Positions 20,637 to 58,873 of a stretch of 64,000 nt of DNA are shown piece by piece. The stretch is from NCBI GenBank assembly GCA_028554795.2, contig JAPYKE020000552.1, positions 124,001-188,000 of the forward strand, in the 5' to 3' direction. This DNA is from Sinohyriopsis cumingii. Its lineage: Eukaryota; Mollusca; Bivalvia; Unionida; Unionidae. Every line of letters starts with the position of its first letter. The first letter of the stretch is position 1. Made by a program: the position numbers and the translations under genes. The notes under the pieces are model-generated. The model saw nothing but the letters and a program-made list of their open reading frames with translations. It was not told the origin of the DNA and made no database searches.

Positions 20637-20652
20637 GGCCCTGAAAAGGGCC
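20637..20652 (-). terminator. Histone-type 3' stem-loop after left terminal gene of element 1
   Basis: On the minus strand GGCCCTTTTCAGGGCC forms a 6-bp stem with a TTTC loop, preceded by CCCAAA and followed by AGCCA and then, 9-18 nt on, CTCGAAAAGAGAT. It begins 24 nt after the stop codon of the gene at 20677-20913. Stem length, tetraloop, A-rich 5' flank, ACC-like 3' flank and purine-rich downstream block all match the replication-dependent histone mRNA 3' end. Confidence 0.85.
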
Positions 20653-20676
20653 TTTGGGTTTATGTTAATATTAATA

Positions 20677-20913
20677 TTAACATAGATGGCATCTGTCACA
20701 TCTTCTTCTTCTTCTTCTTAAACTCCTTCTAACTGCCGGTCCATACACAAGTACCCTCTTGAGACATCCTTGTCTTTCTATGTAAACTCTCCTCATCCAT
20801 TGACTAGTATCTGTCCTATCAACAACAGTCCACTTGGACCTGACATACATGAGCATGTCCGTCCTAAACATCATGGAAGACACAAGGGTGGATGACTCAA
20901 CTGTGGTCCACAT
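20677..20913 (-). CDS. Left terminal small protein (78 aa), outward-facing
   Basis: Unrecognised protein. Its start MWTTVESSTLVSSM is conserved in the homologous gene of element 2 (MWTNVESSTLVSSM at 38199-38384), with the same strand, position, TATA box (minus-strand TATAAATA at 20958-20965) and stem-loop 3' end, so it is a real gene. After about 20 conserved residues the two copies diverge. The element 1 C-terminus is very basic (RRSLRRRRRRCDRCHLC), suggesting nucleic-acid binding or nuclear targeting, but this tail comes from a TTC repeat that may be a local expansion. It is transcribed outward, toward the left end, and divergently from the gene at 21133. Confidence 0.7.
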   Translation of the reverse strand: MWTTVESSTLVSSMMFRTDMLMYVRSKWTVVDRTDTSQWMRRVYIERQGCLKRVLVYGPAVRRSLRRRRRRCDRCHLC

Positions 20914-21132
20914 CTTGAAGCGACGAGAATAGGTGAATCAATGCAGTGAACTGCGCTTATTTATAGGTACAGGAAGGATTGAAACGGATTGAATTCATTC
21001 ACCAATCCGAACACGCGTTACAAAATTCAGTCAGCTCGCATCCAATCCGAAGAGAGCAGTCTGTGACGTCACGTGGTCTATATAGATTCGTTAGCGCTTG
21101 TGTGCAGTCAATCTATGCGACAGTGATTCAAC
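20914..21132. promoter_or_regulatory. Divergent promoter with CCAAT, CRE, E-box and TATA
   Basis: Between the two left-end genes: two CCAATCCGAA boxes (21002 and 21042), a perfect palindromic CRE TGACGTCA (21064-21071) overlapping an E-box CACGTG (21070-21075), a plus-strand TATATAG (21079-21085, 54 nt before the ATG at 21133) and a minus-strand TATAAATA (20965-20958, 45 nt before the ATG at 20913). The CCAAT, CRE and both TATA motifs are conserved at the same places in element 2 (38385-38602). The CRE suggests CREB/ATF-type host control; that is inference from the motif. Confidence 0.75.
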
Positions 21133-21693
21133 ATGACGGAAACTCAGAAAACGATCCATTGGGGTGCACCAGCAGGGGAGACTGCCCAAGGGAACCCGGA
21201 CTTACTTTCAGAAGAGGTACATTGGGATTTTGTGGATTTTCTTACCTCGCAAGAATTTGTTCCGGAACCTTCGTTACCTTCTTCATTACCGCAAGTGGAG
21301 AATTTTAGACAGAGACAGAAAGAAGAATTGGAGAAATTTATGCAACGACAAAAGGAAGCGGAACAAGCTTTTCTCCTACAGCAACAGCAACAGCAACAAG
21401 AAGAGGTAAGAAAAAAACAACAGCAACAACAGCAAGAAGAAGTAGCAGCAAAGAAACAAGAGGGTGAAAATCAAACGGCTACGGTACTGTTGGACATTTT
21501 AGCGGAGTTAAGAAGTCTGAAACAAATGTATCAGACTTCTTTATCACGACCGAAGAGAATACGACCTTCCCGAGCTAAACACGCCAACCCTGTGACTAAG
21601 CCTGTCGTACCACCCTTAGTGATTTCAACCCAATCATCAGAAGTAGGCCTTGGCCGTGGCAAAGGCTTAAGGCAGTTAAAGTTGATTGGTTAA
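21133..21693 (+). CDS. Q-rich coiled-coil protein with basic tail (186 aa)
   Basis: No known domain. Residues 1-50 include a conserved WDFVDFLTSQEF segment (also in element 2). Residues about 58-110 form a charged, glutamine-rich coiled coil (QQQQQQQEEVRKKQQ). Residues about 116-135 (LLDILAELRSLKQMYQTSL) are a conserved leucine-heptad helix. The tail is basic (RPKRIRPSRAK) and ends in GLGRGKGLRQLKLI, both conserved. The ATG at 21133 is chosen because a TATA box lies 54 nt upstream and the same start is kept in element 2. The mRNA appears to end at a histone-type stem-loop 26 nt after the stop. Confidence 0.85.
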   Translation: MTETQKTIHWGAPAGETAQGNPDLLSEEVHWDFVDFLTSQEFVPEPSLPSSLPQVENFRQRQKEELEKFMQRQKEAEQAFLLQQQQQQQEEVRKKQQQQQQEEVAAKKQEGENQTATVLLDILAELRSLKQMYQTSLSRPKRIRPSRAKHANPVTKPVVPPLVISTQSSEVGLGRGKGLRQLKLIG

Positions 21694-21718
21694 ACTCACC
21701 CCTACACCAAAATAAAAA

Positions 21719-21734
21719 GGCCCTTTTCAGGGCC
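21719..21734 (+). terminator. Histone-type 3' stem-loop after Q-rich gene (element 1)
   Basis: GGCCCTTTTCAGGGCC: perfect 6-bp stem, TTTC loop, preceded by AAAAA and followed exactly by ACCCA, then CTCGAAAAGAAAT about 12 nt later and CAATTTGCCAA further on. This is indistinguishable by eye from a metazoan histone 3' signal. It starts 26 nt after the stop codon. Confidence 0.9.
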
Positions 21735-21981
21735 ACCCACATTTCTCGAAAAGAAATACAATTTCAATTTGCCAATAACTCAAAAATAAACCCCACCCAT
21801 TTTAGCCTTATAGTACGTGTCTGTGTATGAGTGCGTGAGTGTAGCTTCTTATTTTAAAATCAAAACTCAAAGACACTTACCTTATATCATTCATGTATTC
21901 TTTTATCCATTTTTTACAATCCAATTCACAATTCACCACAGAACACTTTAAAAAGTTCGTAGACTTCTTCTTTCTCATTAT

Positions 21982-22473
21982 TTAGTCTCTCTGTTTTTTG
22001 AATTTCTTCACCGTTTTTTCCTCATTTTCTTCCCTTCTTCTTTTCTTCTCCTGTTTCTTTGCCTCTTTTAAATAGAATTGTCTTCTTTCTTCCTCTTCTT
22101 CCTCTGAAGAATCCCTCTCTTCTTTCGAAGAATCCCTCTCTTCTTCCGAAGAATCCCTCTCTTCTTCTGAAGAATCCTTCTTTTCTTTTGACTCCTCTTG
22201 TTTCTTTTTTGGGCAATCTGGAGACCAATGTCCTTTTTCTTTACAATAATAACAGGTATCTTGACTTTTGTCTTTTTTAGCCCCTGTTTTTTTTCTTTTT
22301 TGACGGTCTGGACAGTCTGAAGACCAATGCCCTTTCTTCTGACAGATATAGCAAGTATCTTGACTTTTATCTCGAAAGGAAGGAGAGTAGTCCGTCGGCT
22401 GGTCTGAAGAGAATTTTCTAATGACCCCTCGCAAAGCTCTCACGAAACGTTCCATCTGGGTAGTCTCTTCCAT
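21982..22473 (-). CDS. Zinc-knuckle protein with two CCHC motifs (163 aa)
   Basis: Two Gag-type zinc knuckles of the form C-X2-C-X4-H-X4-C: CYICQKKGHWSSDC and CYYCKEKGHWSPDC, each preceded by KSQDTC-type spacing. They are followed by a run of four DSSEEER-like acidic repeats (casein kinase 2-type sites) and a lysine-rich tail (KKFKKQRD). It probably binds single-stranded nucleic acid. An upstream ATG at 22527 is open, but the TATA box TATATAAA abuts it, so transcription must start downstream; I therefore choose the ATG at 22473 (MEETTQMERF), which is also conserved in element 2. It is divergent from polB. Zinc knuckles are not part of the standard Polinton gene set. Confidence 0.8.
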   Translation of the reverse strand: MEETTQMERFVRALRGVIRKFSSDQPTDYSPSFRDKSQDTCYICQKKGHWSSDCPDRQKRKKTGAKKDKSQDTCYYCKEKGHWSPDCPKKKQEESKEKKDSSEEERDSSEEERDSSKEERDSSEEEEEERRQFYLKEAKKQEKKRRREENEEKTVKKFKKQRD

Positions 22474-22606
22474 CGTTCTCCTCGGTTTGAGAGTGAAATG
22501 AATAGTGAAAGGACAAGACACACCCATTTTATATACGCTGGTTTGCCATGACTATAAATTAGTCTATGGTGTTTGAACTTGAGTCATTTGACGTTTTGCA
22601 CTCAAG
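22474..22606. promoter_or_regulatory. Divergent TATA boxes for zinc-knuckle gene and polB
   Basis: Minus-strand TATATAAA at 22535-22528 serves the zinc-knuckle gene. Plus-strand TATAAATT at 22553-22560 lies 47 nt before the polB ATG. Equivalent TATA motifs are kept in element 2 (39930-39960 region), which supports the start sites. Confidence 0.65.
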
Positions 22607-25600
22607 ATGAAACGATCCTATTCATTCGAGAAGAAAGAAGAAGAAGAAGAAAGTAAGAGGCAGAAACGTGATCTATCGCCTCGTACCAGGGCTGAAATCT
22701 TGGCACAAATTCATGCCAGTGATTTTGAAGAGGACATGAGTGAACCAGAATCCGAACCCTCTAAACCAAGTTCACCACCCTTAGTCAACCCTGAAAAATA
22801 CTATTCCATTCGAGAGACGGAAAAGCGCTCCTCTAGAAAATTTAGAACCACGGCTTACACCTACACGGTGAAGTTTAAAGATTTCAAGACCGAGGTACCC
22901 TTGGAGAAAGCAGAAGGGTTTATCACCGAGATGTGGGATTCTTTGCTCACCGCACTCAAGCGACAATGTCAACCCAAAGAAGACGATCGCTTGACACTAT
23001 CCATAGATCACGACGGTTTGAAATCCCCTGTTTGGATCGAGTTTAGCAGACCCGCAGAACTAACCCCTTCCAAAATCATGGACAAGATTCAACACGTACA
23101 ACAATCTAATGACCAGTTTGACATCACCGATGGTAAAGCCACACCGAAAATGGCTCACGTCTCTCTTCCTCAAGGGACAGGACGCAAAAATATGTTATTG
23201 GTGGACGACCTTCGCAACACCAAAACAAGTCTCGTCCGAATTAACAACCCTCAAGACCAGATGTGTTTAGCTCGAGCCATCGTGGTGGGACGAACCTATG
23301 CCAACAAGAACGACACGGTAGAATGGAAAAGAACCTGGAACACTATTCAACGTTCCTATCGAGCCAAACAACGAAACGAAGCAGAACTCCTGTTACAACA
23401 AGCCGGACTGTCCAAAGACACACCCTGTGGCATTCCTGAGATGCAAAAATTGCAAGATGCCCTAGCTCCACGCTACACCTTGAAAGTGCACCCTCAAGAA
23501 ATGCGCGGGCCTCTGTTGTTTCGAGGCCAAGATTTTAAGGACGGAAAATACATTCATGTCTATCATCACGATGACCATTTCGATACCATTACCAGTATCA
23601 CTGGATTCCTGGGATACGGTTATTATTGTGAGAAATGTGACTATGGTTATAACAATCGAGAGCAACACAAGCATTGTGGAATGAAATGCCCAGGATGTTT
23701 GGCCTCTCCACCCTGTCTGAGCGAAGGACCAGTGCCTTGTTCCACTTGTTTGCGCACGTTTGTCAGTCCTACCTGTTACCAGCAACATCTGAAGACGCAA
23801 GGTTCACAGCAGAAATGTGCTTGTCAACTCTTGAGATTGTGCCCTACGTGTAGACAAGGCATACGTACCAATAGTACCAAGGCACACGTATGTTCAGGAA
23901 AAAAAAATGTCACATTTGTCATCACATCGTGGACTTGGAACACCAATGCTACGTGCAAAAATACCAACCCCCACCAGAGAAAGAGGACGGTCACAAGAAG
24001 AAAGGCAATTTCATCTTTTTCGATTTCGAATGCATGCAAGAGACCGGCATTCACATTCCTAATTTCTGCGTGGCTCATCGAGCGTGCGAGAAGTGCATTC
24101 AAGAACCTATCTTCAGTCATTGCCCTCACTGCAGCAAGATTCCTGGAGGACGTGAAAAAATCTTTCGGGGACCAAACACGTTAGCCGATTTTGCACAATG
24201 GGTCTTAGACCCCATCGACAAGACGTGGAGCCAAGAGGACATCGAACGTTACGGAGATTGTCATCGTCATGCCACGGTGATGGCTCACAATTTCTCCGGA
24301 TACGATGGACAGTTTCTTCTCAGATACTATACGGAACAAGGCACCGAACGTCCTAAAGTGACTTTGAACGGAGCCAAAATCATTTTCATGCAAGTGGGAC
24401 AAGTACAGTTTAAAGATTCGATGAGTTACTTGGCCATGCCTTTGAGCCGAATGCCTAAAACGTTTGGAATGACAGAAATGGCTAAAGGGTACTTTCCACA
24501 CTTTTTCAATACGGAAGCCAATCAACATGCCGTTCTACCCCATTTGCCTGAGGCTCACTATTACGACCCCGACAACATGCGTACCGAACAACGAGAAGAT
24601 TTCTACGCTTGGTACCAGGATCACGCCTCGGACCCCTTCGACTTTCAGGAAGAAATGTTAAAGCATTGTCGTTCCGACGTGGACATTTTACGACGTTGCT
24701 GTGGAAAATTTCGAGAACTGTTCATGGAACACGGAGGGGTCGATCCTTTGAAAGAAGCTTGCACCATTGCCAAAGGGTGTTCCTTAGTGTACCGCCAACG
24801 ATTCATGCCTGAAAACACCGTGGCTGTCATCAGTCCTTAAACGACCCACTTTGTCAAACGTCAATACTTGGTCAAAGCCCTACGCTGGTTACATTACTTG
24901 TGCGACAAGGAAGACAAATGGATCAGCATGCCCGCAACGGAGGAGGCGAAAAGACCATCGGAACGTATTCGGTCGATGGCTGGGACTTAGAAAACCCCAA
25001 GATCGTGTACGAGTTTAACGGTTGCTTATTTCACGGATGTCCCGTCTGCTACCCTGACCGTGACACTAAAAATCAGTTTTTACAACGGACCATGGAAGAC
25101 CTGTACCAGGACACTTGTCAGCGACGCCTAAAGTTAGAACAGGAAGGATACCAAGTGGTGGAAATGTGGGAACACGAGTACGATCACCGTATGAAAACCG
25201 ATCCCGAGTTTAAACGCCTCGTGGAAAGTTACCCGAGGGATAGTTTGTACGGAGGAAGGACCAATGCCACCTGTTTGCTGTACCAAGCCGACGAAGAGAA
25301 AGGAGAAGAAATCAAATACTTGGACGTGTGTTCGTTGTATCCCTACGTGTGCAAATATTGTCGCTTTCCTGTAGGGCACCCGCAATTGCTGACGGAACAC
25401 ATCGACCTGAAAAACATTCGACAATACGAAGGCTTGATCAAGTGCAAAGTTTTGCCTCCCACGAACCTATACCATCCCGTCTTACCTCACCATTGTCAAG
25501 GCAAACTGATGTTTCCCTTGTGCCGTACTTGTGCCGAAACGTGCAACCAGGACCAACCTTGCCATCACAGCCAGGAAGAACGTGCCTTGACGGGAACCTG

Positions 25601-26651
25601 GGTCAGCGTGGAATTGTTCAAAGCTCTGGACATGGGATACCAACTGTTAGAAGTGTACGAAATTTGCCACTTTCCCAAGACACAACAGTACCACAAGGGT
25701 GACCCTACTCAGAAAGGCATTTTCGCCGACTACGTGGATGCCTTTTTGAAACGGAAACAAGAAGCCAGCGGCTATCCTTCCTGGTGTCACACTCCCGAAG
25801 ACCAAATACAATTCAAAGAGAAATACTACGAACAAGAAGGCATCTCTTTAGACCACATCGAAAAAAACGAAGGCAGGCGATCGTTTGCCAAAGTGATGTT
25901 AAATTGCTTGTGGGGTAAAATGGCACAACGACCGTGTTTACCCAAGACGGAATATTTGACAGAACCTTCCCGCTACTTCCAGATGATTCACGACAAAACC
26001 AAATACATGAAACACGTGGACGTCGTTCGAGAGGATTTGATCTTGGTCAATTACGAAGAAGATCTGGACTTTGTACAAGACGACCCTTTTGGAAATGTCA
26101 TCATTGCGGCTTACGTGACAGCTCATGCTCGCTTAAAATTGTACGAAGCTTTAGAACTGTTAGAAGAACGCGTCCTGTACTTTGACACGGACAGTTGCAT
26201 TTACATCCATCACCCGATTCAACAGCACCCTGACATCGAAGGAGACCGTTTAGGAGCCTGGACAGACGAGCATCCCGACGACAAGATTCTAAGTTTCGTC
26301 AGTGGTGGTCCCAAAAATTACGGCTACGAATACCGGGACAAACAAGGAGAAGTGCACACGACGTGCAAAGTGAAAGGACTGACTCTGAATCATCGTACCA
26401 GTCGAGTGGTCAACTTTGGGGTATTGAAAGAAGCCTTGCAATCGGGAGAGGATGGAAACTTTAAAGTGACCACTTATCAACCGAACAAGATTGTACGTTT
26501 ACCCACTCACCACATCGTCAGTCGGCCCCTGGAAAAAATCTATCAAATCGTGTACCAGAAGCGAGTGAGACTTCCCAATCACTTTACGTTGCCGTACGGT
26601 CACATCGATATTGGTCAGCATATAAAAAGGGACAACGTCCAAGACCAATAG
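22607..26651 (+). pseudogene. polB: Protein-primed family B DNA polymerase (Polinton PolB), broken
   Basis: Replicates the element from protein-primed ends. The span of about 1,348 codons fits Polinton PolB. Order: charged N-terminal region, a Cys/His-rich zinc-binding region (about 23626-23890), the 3'-5' exonuclease with Exo I DFE (near 24021), Exo II NFSGYDGQ and Exo III SDVDIL, then polymerase motifs A (DVCSLYPYV, near 25321), B (KVMLNCLWGKM) and C (YFDTDS, near 26178). Three lesions relative to element 2: a missing base in an A-run at 23899-23907, a CAA-to-TAA nonsense at 24838-24840, and a missing base near 24923. All catalytic motifs remain. The A-run lesion could be an assembly error; the nonsense codon is less likely to be. 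Confidence 0.93.
26621..26629 (+). promoter_or_regulatory. TATA box inside the 3' end of polB
   Basis: TATAAAAAG lies within the last codons of polB and precedes the next gene. The matching TATAAAAGG is kept in element 2 at about 43988. TATA boxes overlapping the end of the preceding frame are seen at several junctions in these elements. Confidence 0.55.
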
Positions 26652-26775
26652 TTCATTGTTCATTGAAGTAACTTACCATGTCGTTGACGAAGAAGAAACC
26701 AGATTGGTTAGGAGTCAAATGTTGGACATCACCGAGACCAGGGTTTTGAGGCTTGGACACAAGAGGTGGCCCAGT
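26652..26775 (+). other. Deletion scar of the accessory block found in element 2
   Basis: Between the polB stop and the membrane-protein gene, element 1 has only about 120 bp, whereas element 2 has about 2.6 kb of extra genes (44028-46660). The last part here (GGTTTTGAGGCTTGGACACA) matches the 3' end of the last accessory gene of element 2 (46636-46658). So element 1 either lost the block or represents a state with a different, shorter insert. An ATG in good context at 26677 opens only 23 codons. Confidence 0.6.
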
Positions 26776-27061
26776 ATGCACGAGAGTTATTCAAGGAAAA
26801 AAGTTACTTTTCAACCTGTGTTAGTGACGGTGCCAGAAGAACCCGTCACCCAGGACAGGACTGTCGTGGACAGGCCTGAAAGACCCTTTCGGGAGGACAC
26901 TTGTGTGACCTTACCCCCTACTATAGAACTGGTTAGAACTTTACCCAAAACATGTGGTTGTTGTACAGACACTTGTTTTTTATTCCACGTTTATGTGCCT
27001 TTTATTCTTGTACTTAAGCCTTTGGCTTTTATGTATTTTTGTCTTTCGTATTCATGTTTGA
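26776..27061 (+). CDS. Small tail-anchored membrane protein, C-terminus frameshifted
   Basis: Conserved between the two elements over about 70 residues (QPVLVTVPEEPVTQDRTV, then PERPFR, DTCVTLPP and RTLPKTC) followed by a hydrophobic segment that looks like a single C-terminal membrane anchor. No known domain. I take the ATG at 26776 (MHES), which is conserved at 46669 in element 2. A T-run near 26982 has one T more than element 2, shifting the frame just before the anchor; both frames stay hydrophobic, and the element 2-like frame would stop at 27059-27061. AATAAA follows at 27073. Confidence 0.5.
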
Positions 27062-27072
27062 AAAAAACATTC

Positions 27073-27078
27073 AATAAA
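27073..27078 (+). terminator. Poly(A) signal AATAAA
   Basis: AATAAA 12 nt after the conserved stop of the small membrane-protein gene, kept at 46978-46983 in element 2. No histone-type stem-loop is present here. Confidence 0.6.
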
Positions 27079-27093
27079 CGTGTTCTGAAAAAG

Positions 27094-27100
27094 TATATAA
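27094..27100 (+). promoter_or_regulatory. TATA box of the packaging ATPase gene
   Basis: TATATAA, 50 nt before the ATPase ATG at 27150. The surrounding 60 bp are nearly identical in element 2. Confidence 0.7.
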
Positions 27101-27149
27101 ACTCTTGTCTTGTTTGTTTTTTCGTGTCACAAGTGACATTCCTCACACC

Positions 27150-27893
27150 ATGGCTACCTCTACTGTCTCTGCTCCTTCTTCCTCTACTGTCAAAGTCATC
27201 GACGAACACTTAGATCGTGCCAGTTGGGAGGCTTTGTATCTTCGCCATCCCTTTAACATGCTCATTGCTGGACCTAGCGGTTCTGGCAAAACCGAATTCG
27301 TCAAACGTTTGATCGAACATAAACATCATTTGATCGATCGGCCCCCTCAACGGATCGTGTGGTGTTACAAAGAGTGGCAATCGGCGTACAGCCTCTTGCG
27401 AGAAAGTCAAGGCGATTCCATCGTGTTTGTGGAAGGCATTCCTAAAGAAGACGACGGCATCGTCTCTGACTCCCGTCAAACCCATTTGGTCATTTTCGAC
27501 GACATGTTAGGAGAAGACGAAGAAGAAATTAAACTGTGGTTCACGCGCAAAGGGCATCACCGTAATGCCAGTGTCGTTTACATCACCCAAAATTTGTTTC
27601 AACAAAGTAAAGCCCATCGCACCATCAGTCTCAATGCGCATTACGTGGTCTTGTTTAAAAGACCTCGAGATAAATCGCAAGTGCAAGTCTTAGCCAAACA
27701 GTTAGGAACGCCTTGGCTGACTCAGGCGTACGACGATGCCACTCAAACGCCACACGCCTATTTACTCGTCGATTTGAAACCTACGACTCCCGAGGATTTG
27801 CGATTTTGTACCCACTTGTTTCACCACTGGTGCCAAGACGGAGGGCCTGTCCTGTACACGTCTCCGTCCTCGACTTCATTTCACTCCCCATAA
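27150..27893 (+). CDS. FtsK/HerA-type genome-packaging ATPase (A32-like), 247 aa
   Basis: Pumps the DNA genome into the capsid in Polintons and related viruses. Walker A is GPSGSGKT at residues 41-48, Walker B is HLVIFDDM at about 112-119, followed by an asparagine-containing sensor strand (VYITQNLF). Length and motif spacing fit the compact Polinton ATPases. The start at 27150 (ATGGCTACC, good context, 50 nt after a TATA box) is preferred to upstream non-ATG extension and is identical in element 2. The frame is intact in element 1. It is followed closely by the next gene, whose TATA box overlaps its end. Confidence 0.93.
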   Translation: MATSTVSAPSSSTVKVIDEHLDRASWEALYLRHPFNMLIAGPSGSGKTEFVKRLIEHKHHLIDRPPQRIVWCYKEWQSAYSLLRESQGDSIVFVEGIPKEDDGIVSDSRQTHLVIFDDMLGEDEEEIKLWFTRKGHHRNASVVYITQNLFQQSKAHRTISLNAHYVVLFKRPRDKSQVQVLAKQLGTPWLTQAYDDATQTPHAYLLVDLKPTTPEDLRFCTHLFHHWCQDGGPVLYTSPSSTSFHSP

Positions 27894-27900
27894 AAAAATC

Positions 27901-27908
27901 TATAAAAA
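27901..27908 (+). promoter_or_regulatory. TATA box of the SPKK-rich protein gene
   Basis: TATAAAAA, 46 nt before the ATG at 27947 and 8 nt after the ATPase stop. Conserved in element 2 at 47799-47806. Confidence 0.65.
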
Positions 27909-27946
27909 CCTCAGACCCTTTTTCGTCTGTCTCACACAGTGTAAAC

Positions 27947-28867
27947 ATGACGTCCCTTCAGTCGCATCTTCCCGTCAAATTGATTCGTGCCTTGTATGGC
28001 ATCAGTCGAGAAAAAAATCCACAAACACGAGCTCGTGTCTTAGAAGCTAGTCTCAAAGAAGTCTTACGATGGTTCACGGTGACGGCACGTCAATTACTCC
28101 AAGGAATCATTCAGATTCCTCATCAAACCAAACGCTTTTTTGATCGAAACAAAGTCGCTTTGGTCCAACTGGCCGATCCCCGCATCGACACTCAAACCAA
28201 AAAACAAATCATTTTGAAACCTGGAGGGAGCGGTACTCTAGGAGGGGTCATCATTCGCTCACTCTTAAGATGGGATCCTAATGCCCCCAAAGTTATACCC
28301 AAGACAAAAGTCCAACGAAGCCCCAAGAAAAAAAAGACCAGGTCCCCAAGGAGAACTTCTCCAGTGGCAGGACCCTCCTCTGACCAGACACCACCACCAC
28401 CCCGGAAAAAGAAAAGAAGCCCCCAGAAAAAGAGAAGTCCACAGAAAACTAGTCGCAAGAGAGGCACTTCGGCCAGGACGCAACCTTACACTCGCAAACC
28501 ACGACCTGCCACGGCGGTGACTGCGTCTCCGGCAGCTTCACGTTTGTCCACTTCTCCGTTAATGACACCCAGAACTGAAGAGTACTTGGAGACGTTGATC
28601 ACACCAAGAACTTCTCCGTTGATGACCCCCAAAAGAACTTCCCCAGTGGCAGGACCTTCCAATTTAGTGGCAGTGGCTGCTGCTCACAAAGTACCTTCTC
28701 CCAAAATCAAAGTTCAAGAAAGATCGGGCATGTTACAAAGTTTACTGGATTTGTCCAAGCAAGAACTGGCTCGATTTAGTCCGTTACGTACCCCTGCACG
28801 ACGTGTCATGCCTGTCCTCAAACTAATACGACGTAAAGACAATCAGTGGCGACGCGTTCCAGTATAA
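27947..28867 (+). CDS. Basic SPKK-rich late/core protein (306 aa)
   Basis: Residues 1-105 form a conserved helical domain (LIRALYGISREK, then EVLRWFTVTARQLLQG) ending in a glycine-rich KPGGSGTLGGVIIRSLL. Residues about 110-180 are a low-complexity basic region with repeated SPKKK, SPRR and SPQKK motifs, like DNA-compacting tails of histone H1 or protamine-like proteins. Three TSPVAGPS or TSPLMTP repeats follow, then a conserved C-terminal region (SGMLQSLLDLSKQELARF and a basic end). A genome-condensing core protein is plausible, comparable in role to adenovirus core proteins, but that is inference. The ATG at 27947 is chosen because of the TATA box 46 nt upstream; the longer upstream frame overlaps the ATPase. 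Confidence 0.75.
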   Translation: MTSLQSHLPVKLIRALYGISREKNPQTRARVLEASLKEVLRWFTVTARQLLQGIIQIPHQTKRFFDRNKVALVQLADPRIDTQTKKQIILKPGGSGTLGGVIIRSLLRWDPNAPKVIPKTKVQRSPKKKKTRSPRRTSPVAGPSSDQTPPPPRKKKRSPQKKRSPQKTSRKRGTSARTQPYTRKPRPATAVTASPAASRLSTSPLMTPRTEEYLETLITPRTSPLMTPKRTSPVAGPSNLVAVAAAHKVPSPKIKVQERSGMLQSLLDLSKQELARFSPLRTPARRVMPVLKLIRRKDNQWRRVPV

Positions 28868-28872
28868 AAAAG
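28863..28872 (+). promoter_or_regulatory. TATA box overlapping the end of the preceding gene
   Basis: TATAAAAAAG spans the stop codon of the SPKK-rich gene and lies 54 nt before the ATG at 28926. Element 2 keeps TATAAAAGG at about 48700. Confidence 0.6.
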
Positions 28873-28925
28873 GCCTGTGACCAAGTCGGGTATCAGTGTT
28901 TTTTGGTGCTCCTGAAGACTCAAAC

Positions 28926-29312: not shown

Positions 29313-29317
29313 AAAGG
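29309..29317 (+). promoter_or_regulatory. TATA-like box (GATAAAAAG)
   Basis: Overlaps the stop codon of the preceding gene, 45 nt before the ATG at 29362. Kept at about 49434 in element 2. Confidence 0.45.
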
Positions 29318-29361
29318 TCCTCGGAAGTTCCAAGATCTCAGAATCGACCCCTGACAACCCC

Positions 29362-30006: not shown

Positions 30007-30027
30007 CACACCAACCAACACAAAAAA

Positions 30028-49437: not shown

Positions 49438-49485
49438 AAAGGACCTCTGAAGTCCCAAGATCTCAGATATAACCCTTGACATCGA

Positions 49486-50180: not shown

Positions 50181-50188
50181 CAAACAAA

Positions 50189-51164: not shown

Positions 51165-51530
51165 AAACGACTGCGACCACTACTTCACCCAGTTCTTCTC
51201 TGCATGTGTTGAGATGAACGTGTGCCCAAAACGCAAATCATCTTTTTCTGCCAAATCTTTGTGGTGTATTGTGTCATCGGTGCAGCCATTGCCAATTTGA
51301 GTTTGCAAGAAGCAGACAAACAATTGTGGACCATTTTATTGAGCAGTTGCATCGGTTACCTGCTTCACAATCCCTCCCTGAAATTCTGCTCGAAAGGAAA
51401 CAACGGGAACCTTGTGTCCAGTGCCAGTGCCAGTCACCACTCCAACAACAATAACAACCCCATTTTGGGTGGAGACACTCCTCTGACTTCCAGTAACCTC
51501 TCGGACAACCACAGAACTCTGGAATTAGGA
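51165..51530 (+). pseudogene. Two-pass membrane protein, copy A (5' truncated)
   Basis: The hydrophobic pair IIFFCQIFVVYCVIGAAIAN and LWTILLSSCIGYLLHNP is present. The start and N-terminus were removed by the deletion that also cut the integrase chromodomain. The ATGA overlap with the penton gene is mutated. Confidence 0.8.
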
Positions 51531-52409
51531 ACAATAACAACCAATTTTACTTACCCTTACCCAGTGACAGTTCCATGGAGGTGTTTCCCAATAACACTTT
51601 GTGCTGTTACACGGCCAAATTACCTCAGACCATCCAATTAGATCATGAAGCCCATTGGGAAGTGGAAATCATTCACCCAACACAAATCAAAAACATCACC
51701 TAAAAGCAAAACACTTTCCAGGTGGAAATCCTGAATGCCCAAGTGCAAGAAGAAATCAATAAAATCGGGTTTTTAGGGGACACAAGACGAGCCTTCAGTA
51801 TCTACACCTTAAAAATCCATGCAGGGTTTTATTTTAGTGGTGAACATTTGGTGGACACTATTGCAGATAGAGTCGACTTAGCCTTTGGCAAAGCCCTGAA
51901 CAGAGCCAAAAAAGTGTCAAAATTGAGGACCATAAAGTGGCTCATCGCCTCACGATCAATTTTCAAGATACGGACAAATTGTCCCTCAGGTTTAATGGTA
52001 GTTTGTTTGAAATTTTGGGTGGACATGCACCAATGGTAACAAACAATATGAGCCCCAAGATCAACAGTAATATGGATTTTTACAGAGCTTTTGGAAACCT
52101 GGTAGAACTGAACCAAGGACTGAATTTGATCTTTGTGTATTCCGATGCAGTGGAGTACAACGTGGTAGGACACACCTCTGTACCGTTACTGAGTGTCATA
52201 CCTTTCAAAGTGGATAATGACCAGGAAGGTGCAAACACCTATCACGTACACCGTGAATTTGTACATCCTCACTATTTACCCGTCAGTAAGTCGTATTTGG
52301 ACACTATCAACATTACTATCAAAGGAGATCTGGGACAAAATGTTCCATTCGCCAAAGGGAAGTCACGGTGAAACTCCATTTTCGAAAACGGTTCTCTAAC
52401 GAATTGTAA
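51531..52409 (+). pseudogene. Penton/minor capsid protein, diverged copy A
   Basis: The N-terminal about 40 codons and C-terminal about 90 codons (VELNQGLNL onward) are close to element 1 and copy B, but the middle 120-130 codons are strongly diverged (for example FYFSGEHLVDTIADRVDLAF). The start ATG is lost, TAA occurs at 51700-51702, and a shift occurs near 51920-51940. This is a mosaic of conserved ends around a different centre. Confidence 0.85.
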
Positions 52410-52412
52410 GTC

Positions 52413-52826
52413 ATGTATCCAGTGTACAGAGGTGTTGCTCGACAGCGAGGACACGGTTTAGGAGATATGTTAAAATTCACCTTTCGTTCAGTGGCCCCCG
52501 TGTTGAAACAGATGGTGACACGCGGATTGCACGCCTTGAAAGATGCGGCATTTATAACAGGTTCAGAATTTCTCCAAAATGTCGTCATCGACAAACAAAA
52601 CTCTTAAGAAGCCTTCTTAAGAGGAGGCAAAACTATCTTCCTGCAAACAGGCAAAGACCTTTTGGGTCGACGAGAAACTCCTATAAATGACCTGCACGCT
52701 GCCGAGTCAGGCATTCCTACTTCCCTGACGCCACAGCAAGAACAAGGCGGAAAAAGACGAAGAAGAAAACACTCTTTGAGAAGACTTTACACTTCTAAGG
52801 CTAGAAATACAAAGAAAAAAAGAAGT
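52413..52826 (+). pseudogene. Basic virion protein, copy A (stops)
   Basis: MYPVYRGVARQRGHGLGDML start; stop at 52604-52606, then the frame continues with QTGKDLLGRRETPIN and the basic tail. Its end is fused to the start of membrane copy B through an AAAGAAAAAAAGAAG junction. Confidence 0.8.
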
Positions 52827-52833
52827 GACCATC

Positions 52834-53244
52834 ATGACCTTTCACACAGACTCAGCTACTGCGACCACTCCTTCACCCAGTTCTTCTCTGCAAGATTTAC
52901 AGAAACAACCATTGTGGGTGTGATGTGGAGAATGTCTGCCTAAAACGCAAATCGTCTTCTTCTGCCAAATCTTTGTGGTGTATTGTGTCATCGGTACAGC
53001 CATTGCCAGTTTGAATTTGCAGCAAGGAGACAAACAAAATTGGACCATTTTATTCAGCAGTTGCATCGGTTACCTTCCTCCCAATCCCTCCCTGAAATTC
53101 TCCTCGAACGGGAACAATGGGAACCTTGTGTCCAGTGTCAGTGCCAGTTATCACTCCAGCAACAACAACAACCCCATTTTGGGTGGAGACATTCCTCTGA
53201 CTTCCAGTAACCCATCGGACAGCCACATAACTCTGGAATTATGA
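52834..53244 (+). pseudogene. Two-pass membrane protein, copy B (one nonsense codon)
   Basis: Full-length homologue of 31118-31537 with a TGG-to-TGA change near 52921. It keeps the ATGA overlap with the penton copy B start at 53241. Confidence 0.85.
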
Positions 53245-54171
53245 GTCACCCTAACCAATTTTACTTAACCTTACCCAGTGACAGTTCTATGGAGGTGTTT
53301 CCCAACAACACTTTGTGCTGTTACACGGCCAAATTACCTCAGGCCATCCAATTAGATCACGAAGTCCATTGGGAAGTGGCTTTAGTGGAAATCATTCAAC
53401 CGACCCAAGTCATTAATGTCCTTCCCAATCAAATTTTTTTCAGTGGAAGTTCATGACAAGCAAATGCAACAGTACTTGAATACCCATGTAAAATATTATA
53501 AGAAAACACATAACTCAGAAACTCAAAAGTCGACCTATCACTTGATCATTACCCCAGGCTATTATTTTAGTGGACAACATTTGGTGAGCACCATTGCTTC
53601 TAGGTTTAATGTCGTGTTTCTTAAAGCTTTGGAGAGTGTCAAGAAAAGTGTCGCCTTTGAGTACCATAAAGTAGATCGTCGCTTCCTAATGAAACTTCCT
53701 GAGGGGAACAAAGTGTTGTCCTTTTTATTTTGTCCTGAACTGTTTGACATGTTGGGCGGGGACATGGAGATAAGGATGAAAATGATCAAGAAAAACAAAT
53801 TATCAGTCATTTCTGAAAACGATTATTTTGCCAAGTTTTTTCGTTCCCCGGTAGAACTGAACCAAGGACTGAATTTGATCTTTGTGTACTCCGATGTGGT
53901 GGAGTATAACTTGGTGGGACACACCTCTGTACCTTTACTGCGTGTTATTCCTTTCAAAGTGGATTCTGCCACGAACGCTGACGAAGAAGGTGGAAACACT
54001 TATCACGTTCACTGTTAATTTGTACATCCTCACTATTTTCCCGTCAGCAAGTCTTATTTTCACACTGTCAACATTGCTATAAAAGGAGATCTTGGATAAA
54101 ATATTGCATTCAGCAAAGGGAAAGTCACGGTGAAACTCCATTTTCGAAAACGGTTCTCTAACGACTCGTAA
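53241..54171 (+). pseudogene. Penton/minor capsid protein, copy B
   Basis: Close homologue of 31534-32457 over its whole length. One base missing near 53440, TAA at 54016-54018 and another stop near 54098. Its middle resembles element 1, unlike copy A. Confidence 0.9.
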
Positions 54172-54174
54172 TCA

Positions 54175-54566
54175 TATATCCAGTGTACCGAGGCGTTGAT
54201 CAACAGCACGGATAAGGTTTAGGAGATATGTTGAAATCAGCCTTTCGTTCGGTAGCCCCCGTGTTGAAACCGGTGGTGACACGCGGATTGCACGCCTTGA
54301 AAGATGCGGCATTGACACATGGTAAAGAATTTCTCCAAAATGTCATCATCGACAAACAAAACCCTAAAGAAGCCTTCTTGAGAGCAGGCAAAAATGTCTT
54401 GTTGCAAACGGGCAAAGACATTTTAGGCCGACGAGAAACACCTATAAATGCCCTGCACGCTGCCGAGTCAAGTATTCCTGCTTCCCTGACGCCACAGCAA
54501 GAACAAGGTAGAAAGATACGACGAAGAAAACAGCCTTTCACAAGACTTCACACTTCTAAAGCTTGA
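54175..54566 (+). pseudogene. Basic virion protein, copy B
   Basis: Start ATG is changed to ATA; the rest of the frame (KSAFRSVAPVLKPVVTRGLH, QTGKDILGRRETPINAL) is largely open and close to element 1. Confidence 0.8.
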
Positions 54567-54626
54567 AAGACAAAGAAAAGAAGAACCGTTCGAGACTTAG
54601 ACATTTTTGGTTAAGAAACAGAAAAA

Positions 54627-55868
54627 ATGATGCACCGAGAGTCTTGCGCCAGTTCCAAGTCGGAACTGGATGCTTGCCATTCCATCCACCATGATGAGAA
54701 TGCAAGAATCTCAGTGAATGAAATTTCATCCCGTCTCCTCTTTGACGGATTCAGCTCCCATTGAGTTTCAAATCAAAGGACAACCCGAAGATTACATCGA
54801 TCTGAACAGCAGTTACTTGTATTTGAAAGTCAAAGTTCTAGATAAGACTGGAGGTACTATAGACGGTGACGAGAAAGTAGCTCCCGTCAACAATTTCATG
54901 CATTACTTATTCAGCGGAGTGGATTTGTACTTGAATAACAAACTAGTCAGTAGCAGTGTGGATACTTACTCTTATCGTGCCTACCTGGAAAATCTCTTGA
55001 CGTACGGAATAGACGCCAAGACTACTCATCTCAATGCCTGTGTGGTATAGGAACCTGACGATGCCGGCGAGATTGACGAAACCGAAATTGATACAAAGAA
55101 AGAACACAATGAGGGATTTGTAGAACTAAGAGACAAAATTATAGAGGGAAGAGTTTAGAACTGATGGATCGTTTGCATTTGGAAAAGTGGTTGCAAGATA
55201 AGTATTTGCTGAACGGGGTGGATGTTCGCTTGAGACTGAATCGCAGCAGTACCGCTTTCCATTTAATGGCTGATAGTGCCGATTACAAAACCATCATCCA
55301 AGAAGCCACTTTGATCAGAACGACCGCCAAGTATCCAATACGACGCGTGGAAGTGAAAACGTTCACCATTCCTATGGGTCAGCGATCCATGATCGAAGAT
55401 CATCTGTTCCAAGGACAGGTTCCCAAACGTTTGATTATTGGTATCGTCGAGAATACAGCCTTCAATGGAGCCTTCACTAAACATCCTTTCCACTTTCATC
55501 ACTTTGGCGTGTCCAAGATTGAAGTCAGTCGCTATGGCAAGACCTTGTGTACCCGACCTTTCGAACCTGACATTGACAAGAAGAATTACTTGAGATCGTA
55601 CGAAGCCGCTGGACATTTAGGGACCAACACCAGTCATGGCATTACGTACGAGGATTATGCAGGAGGCAACGCTTTGTGGGCTTTTGATTTCACTCCAGAC
55701 TAAGGCAGCGACGAGGGATATTTCCACCCTTTAAAATCCGGCCAGATTCGAGTGGAAATTCAGTTTGCAAACCGAGATCCTGATGAAAAGGTGAACGTCA
55801 TCCCGTATGCCGAATTTAACAATACGATAGAAATCAACAGTTTGAGAGAAGTCATTCTAGACTATTAG
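54627..55868 (+). pseudogene. Major capsid protein, element 2 copy, multiply broken
   Basis: Homologue of 32894-34187. Stops at about 54717 (TGA), 55048-55050 (TAG) and 55701-55703 (TAA), and shifts near 54680 and 55150. It lacks an internal stretch around 55315 (the segment LYVRRVEVLPKVGNDISQ of element 1). It keeps the 14 bp that element 1 lost. Confidence 0.92.
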
Positions 55869-55873
55869 AAGCC

Positions 55874-56389
55874 ATGGAAGACTTTAATGAATGTTTATAT
55901 AGTAAAGATTGTTTGGACATGGAATGTGAAGAGTCTGGTGAAGAGCCCGTGGAAGGAGAATCTCAAGACAAAGACGAAGAAGGCATAATGATGAAGTCGA
56001 GATAGTTAAAACAAGAAGCAGAATTAGTTGGCTGTTTTGGTATAGCCCTGACAGAAAAAATTAAGGAATTGATCAAGAAAGATTGCTATGGAAGTCACAA
56101 CGATCATCCCATTAAAATTCAACACGATACATGTCTGATGCTGAGTCAAGAAGAAAAATTGAACAAATATCTGGAAAAAGCTTGGACTCTCATCTCGGAA
56201 GAAGACGTGTTGCAACAGTGGTATAAAGACTTGCGTGAACATTCTTGTTCTCCATTAACAACTCAAGAGATCCATCGCATAGAAGATTACTTGGATCAGA
56301 CTTGGGAGACGAAGCGAAGAAACGGTTACTTGTCAGACCTTTTCATGAACAAATTTAGGATACAATTGATCATTTTTCATTACCTGTGA
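55874..56389 (+). pseudogene. Post-MCP acidic/helical gene, 171 codons with one stop
   Basis: MEDFNECLYSKDCLDMECEE starts an acidic region; TAG at 56004-56006; then helical sequence (LTEKIKELIKKDCYG, QEEKLNKYLEKAWTL, WYKDLREH). It begins 5 nt after the MCP stop. Element 1 keeps only a 28-codon remnant (34193). No domain recognised. Confidence 0.55.
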
Positions 56390-56463
56390 AACAAAATGTT
56401 TGTTAGTTATATTGAACGATTATTGTTAAAAATGTTTGTGAATGGTTAGTGGTGAGTTATTGG

Positions 56464-56469
56464 AATAAA
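56464..56469 (+). terminator. Poly(A) signal after the capsid cluster (element 2)
   Basis: AATAAA followed by GTAGTGTTTG, at the same place as 34293 in element 1. Confidence 0.6.
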
Positions 56470-56596
56470 AATGTAGTGTTTGAAAAAAAATGTCTTTGGC
56501 AATTGTTTTTGCCATGAGTATCATGAACCATGCACTTTGACTTCTCTCTATTCCTCACAAGACACTAATTTAGCGTTCCGACTCGAAAACCGTGAA

Positions 56597-56636
56597 GGGA
56601 TATTTTCCTTCGCGTCCGCGCTTTGACCATAAAAAC
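56597..56636 (+). promoter_or_regulatory. Right-end promoter box, element 2 copy 1
   Basis: GGGATATTTTCCTTCGCGTC then CGCGCTTT, followed by CATAAAAAC; the ATG at 56687 is about 55 nt later. Confidence 0.75.
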
Positions 56637-56686
56637 GGGGTAATCTTCAGTCTGACCATCCATTGTCGACTTATCCTCCTACGAAG

Positions 56687-57183
56687 ATGTGCTCAAGATT
56701 AGCCAAGTTGAACGAAGCCTGCGTGAATTTGCATCGTGTCTGTCAATGTCTGATGCCGAAGCCTGAAGAGATAGAGAATGCTAGAATGTTACAAGTCACT
56801 GAAGACCTGTTAGTAGAGCTCTTCAGAGAAGAAATTAACAAGGAGAAAGAAGAATGGACAGAGAAGTACAGACTTCAAAAACAGCAGAGACAGCAGCAAC
56901 AGCATCAGCAGCAGGAACATGACAGAGGTTTTGCCGAATGTCGTGTCAATACCAAAGAGTTCTCCTTCTCTTTCCGAAGAAGCACCATATCCTGTGAGAA
57001 AGCCTGTCGTCAGAGGAAGCCGCAATCTTAGACCCTAAAAGATTGCCATAGCCTGAAAGTGAAGACTGGGATAGTGAAGCGAATCAACCTGCCTCAGCAC
57101 TTCCAAGAACAATAATAAATTGGGAAGGAGATTGGAGTAGACTTTGTGTCTGTGGTGCCAGACCTGGAAGGTGCCACCATTAA
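56687..57183 (+). pseudogene. Right-end gene, composite of element 1 genes 1 and 2
   Basis: The first 115 codons (MCSRLAKLNEACVNLHRV, EEWTEKYRLQ, Q-rich stretch) match right-end gene 1 of element 1 and stop at 57031. The sequence that follows matches the 3' end of right-end gene 2, ending in CVCGARPGRCHH in a different frame. So either element 2 has a deletion fusing two genes, or element 1's two genes arose by duplication and loss from one such gene. Confidence 0.65.
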
Positions 57184-57211
57184 CCAGGTTCCTCTGGAGT
57201 TCCATAAAAAC

Positions 57212-57227
57212 AGCCCTTTTCAGGGCT
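57212..57227 (+). terminator. Histone-type 3' stem-loop, element 2 right-end gene
   Basis: AGCCCTTTTCAGGGCT: perfect 6-bp stem, TTTC loop, AAAAAC before, AACCA after, then CTAGAAAAGAAAC and CAATTTGCCAAT. It starts 28 nt after the TAA at 57181-57183. Confidence 0.88.
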
Positions 57228-57309
57228 AACCAAAACTCTAGAAAAGAAACAGTAATCAATTTGCCAATGTGTGAATGTGGAGTAGCGTAAATATAAAGAC
57301 TCACTAATT

Positions 57310-57776
57310 TATTGGCATGACTATTATGTGTGTGTGTGTTTGTGTTTTTAAGCGCTCAAGTACGTTAGTGTGGATGGTGTAAGCACCCAAGTACGTTAGT
57401 GTGGATGGTAGATTATTGGTTTTTGTAAGTGCTAAAGTACGTTTGTTTGAATAATAAATTATGGTTATGTTTTTGCTGCTTCCCGTGTGTGGATAGTATA
57501 TTATGATTGTGTTTATGCTGCTTCCGTGTGTGAATATTATAATTTGGGTTTGTTTTTAGCTGCTTCCAGTGTGTGGATAGTATCATCTGGGTTTGATTTT
57601 GCTCCTTCGCATGTGTGGATAGTATATTTGGGTTTGATTTTAGCTACTTCCCGTGTGTGGATAGTAGATATGGGTTTGATTTTAGCTACTTCCCCTCTGT
57701 GAATAGTATATTTGGGTTTGTTTATATGGCTCATCATCTCTGTGTGAATAGTATATAATATGAGATGACAAAAGTA
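57310..57776 (+). repeat. 42-bp tandem repeats in right-end intergenic region
   Basis: GTGTGGATAGTATATTTGGG-type units start at 57487, 57528, 57571, 57613, 57655 and 57697 (spacing 41-43 bp), each followed by TTTGATTTTAGCTACTTCCC or variants. Upstream (57340-57450) are units with GCTCAAGTACGTTAGTGTGG. Related to the array at 35870-36358. No gene seen. Confidence 0.8.
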
Positions 57777-57816
57777 GGGGATATTTTCCTTCACGTCCGT
57801 GCTTTCCAGATAAAAA
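57777..57816 (+). promoter_or_regulatory. Right-end promoter box, element 2 copy 2
   Basis: GGGGATATTTTCCTTCACGT then CCGTGCTTT, followed by GATAAAAAC at about 57809; the ATG at 57864 is about 50 nt later. Confidence 0.75.
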
Positions 57817-57863
57817 CTCAAAGGGTTCGTCGTTCGCGCCATTCTACGGAAGAACCCAAGCAA

Positions 57864-58466
57864 ATGAGTATAGAACTATTTAATGAGCTAAAAGAGAGTT
57901 GGTACCGGATGACAGATGCAGCCTATATGGTGGAAAGGCTAGAGAAGGAGTGGATGTATAAAGTTACGAAGGACTTTGTCAAAAGCGAAGTGACGAGTCT
58001 AAAACTTGCCAGGGATCTGATTGAGGGTATGATTGAAGAAGAGGTTAAAAAGTTAAGAGGCTTGATACAACTTGACTATGTGAAAGTGGGTAAATTGAAA
58101 GAGTCCCTTGATTATGCTACTGACGTCAGGTGTTTTTTAACAGATATCTTGGAGTGGACTGAGTGGTCGTATATGAAATGGGGTTTAAACCAACTGATGA
58201 AAGCAGAGGAAATGATGATGAAAGTGACGAGAGAACAAGTCAAGAAGATCAATGACACTTGGACTGAAGAGAGAAAAGAAAGAGAAAAAATAAAGGAAAC
58301 AAAAAAGAGTTTGAAAGGATAAACAACAACTGGATGAAGATACAGGCCAAGTTCAGAGCATTGGGCCATCCTGACTGGATGCCGGAAAATGATGAGAAGA
58401 AGAAGAAGAAGAAGAAAGGATTATTAGGAAAAGTCAGGAACTGGATGAAGAACTGGAGAAAATAAA
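57864..58466 (+). pseudogene. Right-end gene with long helices and cationic amphipathic end
   Basis: Open for 152 codons from the ATG (MSIELFNELKESWYRMTDAA), all predicted helical and charged, to a stop at 58320-58322. The adjoining frame then continues to 58464-58466, ending KKGLLGKVRNWMKNWRK. That cationic, tryptophan-containing amphipathic helix parallels the end of element 1's gene 3. A shift near 58315 therefore probably separates two parts of one gene. Unknown function; a membrane-active or nucleic-acid-binding tail is possible. Confidence 0.6.
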
Positions 58467-58473
58467 AGAAGAA

Positions 58474-58873
58474 AAACCCAAAGACCCTTTTCAGGGCCCC
58501 TCCTATCTCTCGAAAAGAAATTTACTTTCTTGCCTAACTCCCAAACAATTTTTTTTAAAATTTTGTCTATGTATAATGTAAGTTTTGTCTGTATTCTCTC
58601 TGTACACTCCGCTCTTTGCTCAGTCCTGTGACGTCACCTGCCCCTAGTTGCTACAGTGTTACCAATCTCCCCTACCGTGACGTCAGACGCCCTCTTTCCC
58701 TTGTCGCTCTGTAGTCCCATCCCTGTTAAATTCCCCATGTTAAATTTCCCTTGTCGCTCAATAGTCCCATCCCTGTTAAATTTCCCCATGTTAAATTCTC
58801 CTTGTCGCCAGGGTACAACCCCCCATCTTAACATTAAAGTTCCATTGTCGCCAGGGTATCTCATATTACTACT
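58474..58873 (-). repeat. Element 2 right terminal inverted repeat
   Basis: Inverted copy of 37777-38188. It includes two CRE palindromes TGACGTCA (about 58630 and 58678), the GCGACAAGGG-type subterminal units and the terminus CATATTACTACT. Confidence 0.92.
58483..58498 (+). terminator. Histone-type 3' stem-loop in right TIR of element 2 (one mismatch)
   Basis: GACCCTTTTCAGGGCC: five of six stem pairs kept, TTTC loop, CCCAAA before, CCTCC after, CTCGAAAAGAAAT downstream. It begins 16-17 nt after the stop of the right-end gene and faces outward. Confidence 0.75.

Follow-up and report, generated by a model that had tools for sequence, protein, structure and literature searches.

Two virus-like Polinton elements in the genome of the bivalve Sinohyriopsis cumingii carry, at the ends of their outermost genes, the 3′ signal of replication-dependent histone mRNAs. 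The elements, referred to as E1 and E2, lie in a 64,000-nt stretch of assembly GCA_028554795.2 (contig JAPYKE020000552.1, positions 124,001-188,000; hereafter the window), and the 2.905-Gb assembly was used for genome-wide searches. Among animal protein-coding mRNAs, those of replication-dependent histones have been described as the only ones known to finish with a stem-loop in place of poly(A) (PMC6303110), with the SLBP/U7 machinery cutting the pre-mRNA between the stem and a purine element (PMC7026596). The right-end Polinton genes additionally share a promoter block with histone genes of the host. This sharing of a 3′ signal and a promoter block suggests that Polintons borrow the replication-timed expression system of their host, and, judging from the sequence, we consider it very probable that the outer genes are expressed via the host replication-dependent histone route.

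Histone-type 3′ signals in the window

E1 and E2 are Polinton/Maverick elements by their 6-bp target-site duplications (TSDs), terminal inverted repeats (TIRs), DNA polymerase B (PolB), rve integrase, and A32-type ATPase. E2 is decayed and contains internal duplications.

20290-37294: Polinton element E1, 17.0 kb, TSD CTTATA at 20284-20289 and 37295-37300
37777-58873: Polinton element E2, about 21.1 kb, TSD TAGCTT at 37771-37776 and 58874-58879

A sequence-only reading of this DNA had proposed nine stem-loops with purine blocks at the outer genes. All nine exist, each within one mismatch of RGCCCTTTTCAGGGCY, and are listed here with their scores against RF00032, the Rfam model of the histone 3′ stem-loop.

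20637-20652, minus strand: stem-loop in the E1 left TIR; 35.6 bits; purine block about 20617-20623
21719-21734, plus strand: stem-loop 25 nt after gene 21133-21693; 41.2 bits; purine block about 21748-21754
34917-34932, plus strand: stem-loop whose outer pair is A-U, 42 nt downstream of gene 34518-34874; 28.2 bits, below gathering; purine block about 34946-34952
35801-35816, plus strand: stem-loop whose outer pair is A-U, 31 nt downstream of gene 35392-35769; 29.9 bits, below gathering; purine block about 35830-35836
36929-36944, plus strand: stem-loop in the E1 right TIR; 28.2 bits, below gathering; purine block about 36958-36964
38165-38180, minus strand: decayed stem-loop in the E2 left TIR; not in the RF00032 listing
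39215-39230, plus strand: stem-loop downstream of the E2 homologue of gene 21133-21693, which is broken; 40.4 bits; purine block about 39244-39250
57212-57227, plus strand: stem-loop with A-U outer pair in E2; 26.4 bits, below gathering; purine block about 57241-57247
58483-58498, plus strand: decayed stem-loop in the E2 right TIR; 21.2 bits, below gathering; unfolded

When up to two mismatches were allowed, RGCCCTTTTCAGGGCY matched the window 10 times, compared with 0.10 expected matches per shuffled window, and none of 100 shuffles reached 10. Five of the nine stem-loops are exact matches (20637 on the minus strand; 21719, 35801, 39215, and 57212 on the plus strand) and four have one mismatch (34917, 36929, and 58483 on the plus strand; 38165 on the minus strand, which had been placed at 38164). 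The tenth match, at 51892 on the minus strand, has two mismatches and lacks histone-type flanks; it is the only match among the inner genes (21735-34916 and 39231-57211), where no histone-type module was found.

The RF00032 search had been set beforehand as a refuting test, and its outcome favoured the earlier reading. Three window copies scored above the gathering score of 34 bits (41.2, 40.4, and 35.6 bits), and five more scored 29.9 to 21.2 bits (E = 0.00017-0.29). The predicted 6-bp stem with a 4-nt loop, claimed for all nine copies, was recovered in seven; 38165 (minus) folds in a shifted register and 58483 (plus) fails to fold, and these two are the copies inside the decayed E2 TIRs. AAAAGA lies 14 nt past the stem in nine of nine copies. 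A second hairpin, covering the purine block, was predicted for some copies but for none of the A-U class, and we did not retain it.

Each of the nine stems has the orientation of an outer-frame 3′ end and follows a stop codon on the coding strand, as had been claimed, at a distance of 17-42 nt from stop codon to stem start (up to 43 nt in the earlier reading). Only three of the preceding frames exceed 100 codons from an ATG, namely those before the stems at 21719, 34917, and 35801 (186, 118, and 125 codons):

21133-21693, plus strand: left-end gene of E1, 186 aa, resembling a coiled coil by eye, no Pfam family over its cut-off
34518-34874, plus strand: right-end gene of E1, 118 aa from ATG, no Pfam family
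35392-35769, plus strand: right-end gene of E1, 125 aa, highly charged, no Pfam family over its cut-off

The frames at 20637 (minus), 36929 (plus), 38165 (minus), 39215 (plus), and 58483 (plus) have 78, 86, 61, 61, and 43 codons from ATG, respectively, and the frame at 57212 (plus) has 43 codons and no ATG. Four of the nine stems sit at the inner edge of a TIR, which starts 8-9 nt before the stem in both elements, so that one repeated signal can close both outward-reading tip frames.

As a control, we searched viral contigs of IMG/VR. The bare 16-base core occurred at 107 places, of which four had an ACC-like 3′ flank, seven had an A(3-5)GA block no more than 40 nt away, and none had both. On the strength of this control and the shuffles, we rejected chance or simple inverted repeats as the source of the stems. 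The lone viral-contig match to a degenerate pattern lies inside a long reading frame, shows no other sign of the module, and was taken as chance.

Recurrence in other Polinton copies and likeness to host histone genes

The sequence-only reading predicted the same signal after homologous genes in other Polinton copies, and this was borne out across the assembly. The RF00032 search scored 75 of 589,472 first-look candidates, and all 75 exceeded the cut-off (45.6 to 34.5 bits). Seventy-two of these loci adjoin a Polinton gene: a terminal gene in 71 (20 right-end, 51 left-end) and only the polymerase in one (L183). The remaining loci, L147, L170, and L176, had no tblastn match, yet their modules are of the terminal-repeat type. 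In the 75 loci, each spanning about 3 kb, no match to H2A, H2B, H3, or H4 was found at E ≤ 1e-4 (H1 was not queried); because host histone stems (35.0-39.4 bits) would outscore the lowest listed rows, this absence of histones does not amount to a ranking of the genome.

We then asked how regularly the stem follows a gene, using loci L109-L138 (30 loci) and only those gene matches extending to the end of the gene. A stem with no more than two mismatches stood 20-40 nt beyond the matched gene end in 28 of 29 terminal genes (16 of 17 left-end and 12 of 12 right-end), the single failure being L135. The background was 162 of 3,000 random 160-nt windows from the same loci, some of which overlap modules.

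The purine block is similarly regular. In 158 modules from the 75 loci and the window, all with a stem within two mismatches, AAAAGA was at offset 14 in 149, at offset 15 in two, and absent in seven; it fell at offsets 13-15 in 96% of modules versus 0.2% of shuffled flanks. Because RF00032, a model that favours A-rich downstream sequence, supplied about half of these modules, the offset count is not a fully independent result; second modules at these loci resemble the RF00032-found ones. In nine aligned copies and in 69 modules (30 loci and the window), information per column was 1.83 bits in the stem-loop, which was selected for, 1.71 bits in the next five bases, and 1.57 bits in the purine block, and it was 0.21-0.26 bits in flanks 11-60 nt upstream and 61-104 nt downstream. 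The outer stem pair in these modules was G-C in 51, A-U in 14, a G-U wobble in one, and mismatched in three. We also compared mean pairwise identity among 17 left-end and 12 right-end genes plus one each from E1, with gappy pairs left out. Among right-end genes, the values for the stem (0.94), for ACCCA (0.97), and for the purine block (0.92) lie far above those for the coding end (0.67; 55/78 pairs) and the sequence beyond (0.74).

The histone genes of the host carry the same kind of signal. A search with H4 gave 114 matches, of which 109 spanned the whole query without a difference; the matches are arrayed in tandem units of about 8.3 kb. One unit (L185) holds H4, H2B, H2A, and H3, detected by tblastn, and H1, detected by translation, and each of the five genes is followed by an RF00032 match (35.0 to 39.4 bits). 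The stem is GGCCCT/AGGGCC in H2A, H2B, H3, and H4 and GGTCCT/AGGACC in H1. The H2B stem-loop is identical to the Polinton form at 16 of 16 bases, and those of H3, H4, and H2A differ from it in the loop only. A different host stem-loop had been named as evidence that would speak against the reading; since four of the five host genes have the same stem, no such evidence was found.

The host purine block is CTAGAAAAGA in H1, H2B, H3, and H4 and CCCGAAAAGG in H2A, with GAAAAG 13-14 nt past the stem, nearly the Polinton spacing. Counted as AAAAG, the offset is 14 in H4, H2B, and H3 and 15 in H2A and H1 (H4 has an earlier AAAAG at 3). A second histone unit is alike in stem and GAAAAG for H4, H2B, and H2A. 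The exact host form CTAGAAAAGA is present in 34 of the 158 Polinton modules, including those at 34917, 35801, and 57212 in the window, and in most right-end genes of the 29-gene set; the commonest other forms contain TCGAAAAGA or TTGAAAAGA. Separately, TTGCC or TTTGCC occurs about 25-40 nt past the stem, after the purine block, in all nine window modules and most modules elsewhere, and host H2A has TTTTGCC at the matching place, with related words in other host histone genes.

Shared promoter blocks and competing explanations

A blastn comparison of the histone unit with E1 and E2 revealed a second common stretch besides the 3′ ends, located upstream of genes. In the host, block A (ATGTTTTCCATCACGTCCGCGCT and variants) is found 106 nt upstream of the H2B start codon and, as a close variant, 104 nt upstream of that of H1. 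Block B (TTTCTTTTAGGTCCGCGCGTT) precedes host H4, 84 nt from the start codon. In host H2A, block A was observed in inverted orientation, 169 nt before the start codon (L185 1628-1652), and no such block was seen upstream of host H3. The window contains block A six times, always on the plus strand, and block B once; 20 shuffled windows contained no block A at up to seven mismatches.

34431-34455, plus strand: block A, 87 nt before start codon 34518
35232-35252, plus strand: block B, matching the host H4 promoter at 21 of 21 bases
35306-35330, plus strand: block A, 86 nt before start codon 35392, sharing 23 identical bases with the host H2B promoter
36363-36387, plus strand: block A, 69 nt ahead of the next block A
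36432-36456, plus strand: block A, 85 nt before ATG 36517
56600-56624, plus strand: block A in E2, 87 nt before ATG
57781-57805, plus strand: block A in E2, 83 nt before ATG

Five of the six window copies of block A have an ATG at 83-87 nt and a TATA-like word, as defined by a loose ad hoc word list, at 22-28 nt; the corresponding distances are 84 and 30 nt in host H4 and 106 and 51 nt in host H2B, and H1 has no TATA-like word by this list. Among the 75 loci, all 20 that have a right-end gene contained block A (no more than five mismatches in 25), and 51 of 51 matches were on the coding strand. Of 44 distances from block A to a gene start, 14 placed the block 82-94 nt upstream and 30 placed it 585-859 nt downstream, where the next right-end gene lies in the window. 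Block B searched at up to four mismatches also matches block A sites, and for this reason its own count of 20 of 20 was not used. Right-end Polinton genes and the host H2B and H4 genes thus have a promoter block of 21-23 bases in common, of which H1 has a close variant, and its distance from the start codon is similar. At the level of sequence, the proposal of the earlier reading that the elements use or mimic the host histone pathway is supported, and the promoter block extends the evidence for it.

Several observations weigh against expression of the outer genes through the histone route. A number of the nine window stems come after short or broken frames, and AATAAA or ATTAAA lies within 80 nt of the stems at 21719, 34917, 39215, and 58483, so polyadenylation may occur there. 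In the left-end class, identity in the stem (0.90), ACCCA (0.87), and purine block (0.84) is close to that of the coding end (0.83) and the sequence beyond (0.88; 136/153 pairs). The five bases after the stem are ACCCA in 123 of 158 Polinton modules and ACACA, ACAAA, ATACA, or ACTTT in the host, which indicates that the Polinton signal is no recent plain copy of this histone array. Loci with a left-end gene mostly lack block A (present in 1 of 51). The left promoter of E1, the one left-end promoter compared by 11-mers, has none in common with the plus strand of the histone unit; with the minus strand it shares just two, which overlap. Finally, a host U7 gene was not found by Rfam and pattern searches of the assembly, in which 65 of 801,960 Rfam candidates were scored.

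Among the U7 candidates, one Rfam match of 29.3 bits (cut-off 34) was splice-site-like and was rejected. The U7 pattern matched 16 places versus nine for the reversed control, and Rfam called none of the 11 examined a U7. One of these, L193, combines a U7-like Sm site with a weak 3′ hairpin and gave no U7 match even at E ≤ 10. We also observed that one pattern match repeats every 35 kb on contig C340 and occurs on C17, which points to a long tandem repeat unrelated to U7.

We considered four other explanations for these data. The promoter block might be a common promoter element of many host genes, with histone mimicry restricted to the 3′ end. The lack of the block at host H3 and its inversion at host H2A are consistent with this explanation, and our comparison covers the histone unit, the window, and the 75 loci. 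However, the four matches in the histone unit all lie 84-169 nt before start codons (H2B, H1, H4, and, inverted, H2A), and exact stretches of 21 and 23 bases, with none in shuffled windows, are long for a general core element. We therefore regard this explanation as unlikely, while keeping it in mind. The position of four stems at TIR inner edges could instead mean that the stem-loops act as DNA hairpins in replication, packaging, or recombination near the TIRs and resemble histone signals by chance. This is very improbable given that nine of nine stems are oriented as outer-frame 3′ ends, that five lie outside TIRs, and that stem, purine block, and spacing follow this host's own histone signal.

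Alternatively, an ancestral Polinton may have captured one or more histone genes with both ends and lost the coding part, such that the outer parts are now a relic or ordinary regulatory DNA and no S-phase processing is needed. Both histone-gene ends are indeed present, and blocks B and A stand in tandem before one gene (35232 and 35306). Against this, no H2A, H2B, H3, or H4 protein match was found in the window at E ≤ 0.1 (H1 was not queried), nor in the 75 loci at E ≤ 1e-4, and the module follows unrelated genes and is near-intact over right-end genes that are 40-91% protein-identical to E1, as a relic would not be. We consider a relic of this kind improbable, but capture as the origin of the signals is compatible with their present use through the histone route. 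Sequence likeness alone gives no direction, and the host histone array might have taken its signals from Polintons. The histone stem-loop and purine element are used across animals, Hydractinia being one reported case (PMC5011920), and we give this reversed direction next to no credence.

Proposed expression route, element context, and known systems

If the outer genes are expressed through the host histone route, they most likely make S-phase, non-polyadenylated, histone-type mRNAs. RNA polymerase II would transcribe the outer genes, the right-end ones from a histone-type promoter in which block A (the host H1/H2B version) or block B (the H4 version) is followed by a TATA-like stretch and an ATG at H4-like spacing. 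SLBP would bind the host-type stem-loop in the 3′ end of the pre-mRNA, and U7 small nuclear RNA would pair with the purine block GAAAAG, 13 nt past the stem. Cleavage would occur between the stem and the purine block, most likely after ACCCA, leaving an mRNA without a poly(A) tail. At the element tips, the signal would form the TIR inner edge and serve both outward-facing tip frames. From the signals we infer SLBP and U7 binding, the absence of poly(A), S-phase timing, and a benefit to the element: expression of the outer genes would rise in S phase, when the element requires nucleotides and replication factors for its own replication. Other signals would serve the inner genes, which comprise the polymerase, ATPase, and integrase and their neighbours.

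On balance, we favour a model in which the outer genes are imitation histone genes at both ends. Non-histone viral proteins would be made from non-polyadenylated, S-phase-restricted mRNAs via the host histone machinery, possibly at the histone locus body, and the TIRs would double as a 3′ processing signal. If true, animals would have a class of protein-coding mRNAs that encode no histone yet share the ending of replication-dependent histone mRNAs, the histone mRNA route could be hijacked, and Polinton expression would be tied to S phase. This would also explain why such transcripts go missing from poly(A)-selected RNA data, and the signal makes the timing and place of Polinton activation directly testable.

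The remaining features of the two elements are as follows; TIR boundaries are from blastn.

20290-20661: E1 left TIR, inner edge 9 nt before the stem-loop
36920-37294: E1 right TIR, inner edge 9 nt before the stem-loop
37772-38188: E2 left TIR, taking in five TSD bases, inner edge 8 nt before the stem-loop
58474-58878: E2 right TIR, inner edge 9 nt before the stem-loop
22607-26651, plus strand: DNA polymerase B region of E1, in several reading frames
27105-27893, plus strand: A32-type packaging ATPase of E1 (PF04665, E = 9.8e-08)
29991-31112, plus strand: integrase region of E1, rve core and C-terminal chromodomain

The TIR arms are 98.7% identical over 375 alignment columns in E1 and 90.7% identical over 418 in E2 (blastn). 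PF03175 (PolB) matched the frames 23890-24840 and 24900-26651 (E = 6.3e-26 and 1.8e-13), and frame 22607-24184 of the same region had no Pfam match. The integrase frame of E1 is broken: the frame of 30028-30543 contains the rve core (PF00665), and a different one, that of 29991-31112, contains the chromodomain; PF00665 matched above its cut-off in E1 (E = 8.7e-13) and below it in E2 (E = 4.8e-06). No capsid family was detected in Pfam or PHROGs for the window open reading frames (ORFs) submitted, and PHROGs gave only weak matches to nameless families. Structure prediction for the capsid-candidate ORF 27713-28867 was too poor for use (mean predicted local distance difference test score, 43.5), and that for another ORF was also poor (35.6). 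PDB sequence searches with window ORFs returned chromodomains or nothing. Relatives in IMG/VR viral contigs, sought with the ATPase, polymerase, and integrase frames (the last being a frame outside the rve frame, chromodomain apart), were not confirmed.

Several further features were observed. The E1 TIRs (20310-20511 and 37072-37274) contain internal repeats around TACGTACAATGGGAATT, spaced about 44-45 and 89 nt. Tandem repeats lie between the last two right-end genes of both elements, at 35964-36260 in E1 (spacing 88-100 nt) and 57444-57735 in E2 (42 nt). A minus-strand reading frame with CCHC zinc knuckles (PF00098) at 21982-22527 faces the left-end gene. In E2, stretches within 51205-54471 that are single in E1 are repeated about 1.7 kb apart, an internal duplication.

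E1 and E2 are like known Polintons/Mavericks and adintoviruses in their TIRs, 6-bp TSD, PolB, rve integrase with chromodomain, and A32-type ATPase, and they differ by the histone-type 3′ ends and promoter blocks at their outer genes. The E1A and E4 genes of adenovirus, a related linear DNA virus, are likewise terminal early genes, and they act on the cell cycle; their mRNAs are polyadenylated and not histone-like, and the comparison with Polinton outer genes is of role only. A limited search of the literature on Polintons, Mavericks, and adintoviruses and on viral or transposon histone stem-loops yielded no description of such signals, with subscription papers little covered and a report elsewhere possible.

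The closest precedent is a tally of six "histone 3′UTR stem-loop" hits in genomes of Polinton-like viruses and virophages, with none in cryptophyte elements (PMC12220804); the section concerned gives a count only and draws no tie to genes, hosts, a purine element, a promoter, or function. A study that mentions histone-like proteins of adomaviruses and related viruses does not use the word stem-loop (PMC11071296). Bracoviruses, which carry histone H4 genes, are likewise a case of a virus-derived element using host histone biology, but they encode the histone protein itself, and the main text of a review on them contains neither stem-loop nor polyadenylat as a word or word stem (PMC9145170). The outer genes of the Polintons described here are most directly comparable to the metazoan histone mRNA 3′ end, with which they share the 6-bp stem, the UUUC loop, the A-rich 5′ flank, ACCCA, and a purine element after a fixed gap. 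They differ from it in that they match no core histone, sit in a mobile virus-like element, and have an A-U outer pair in one class.

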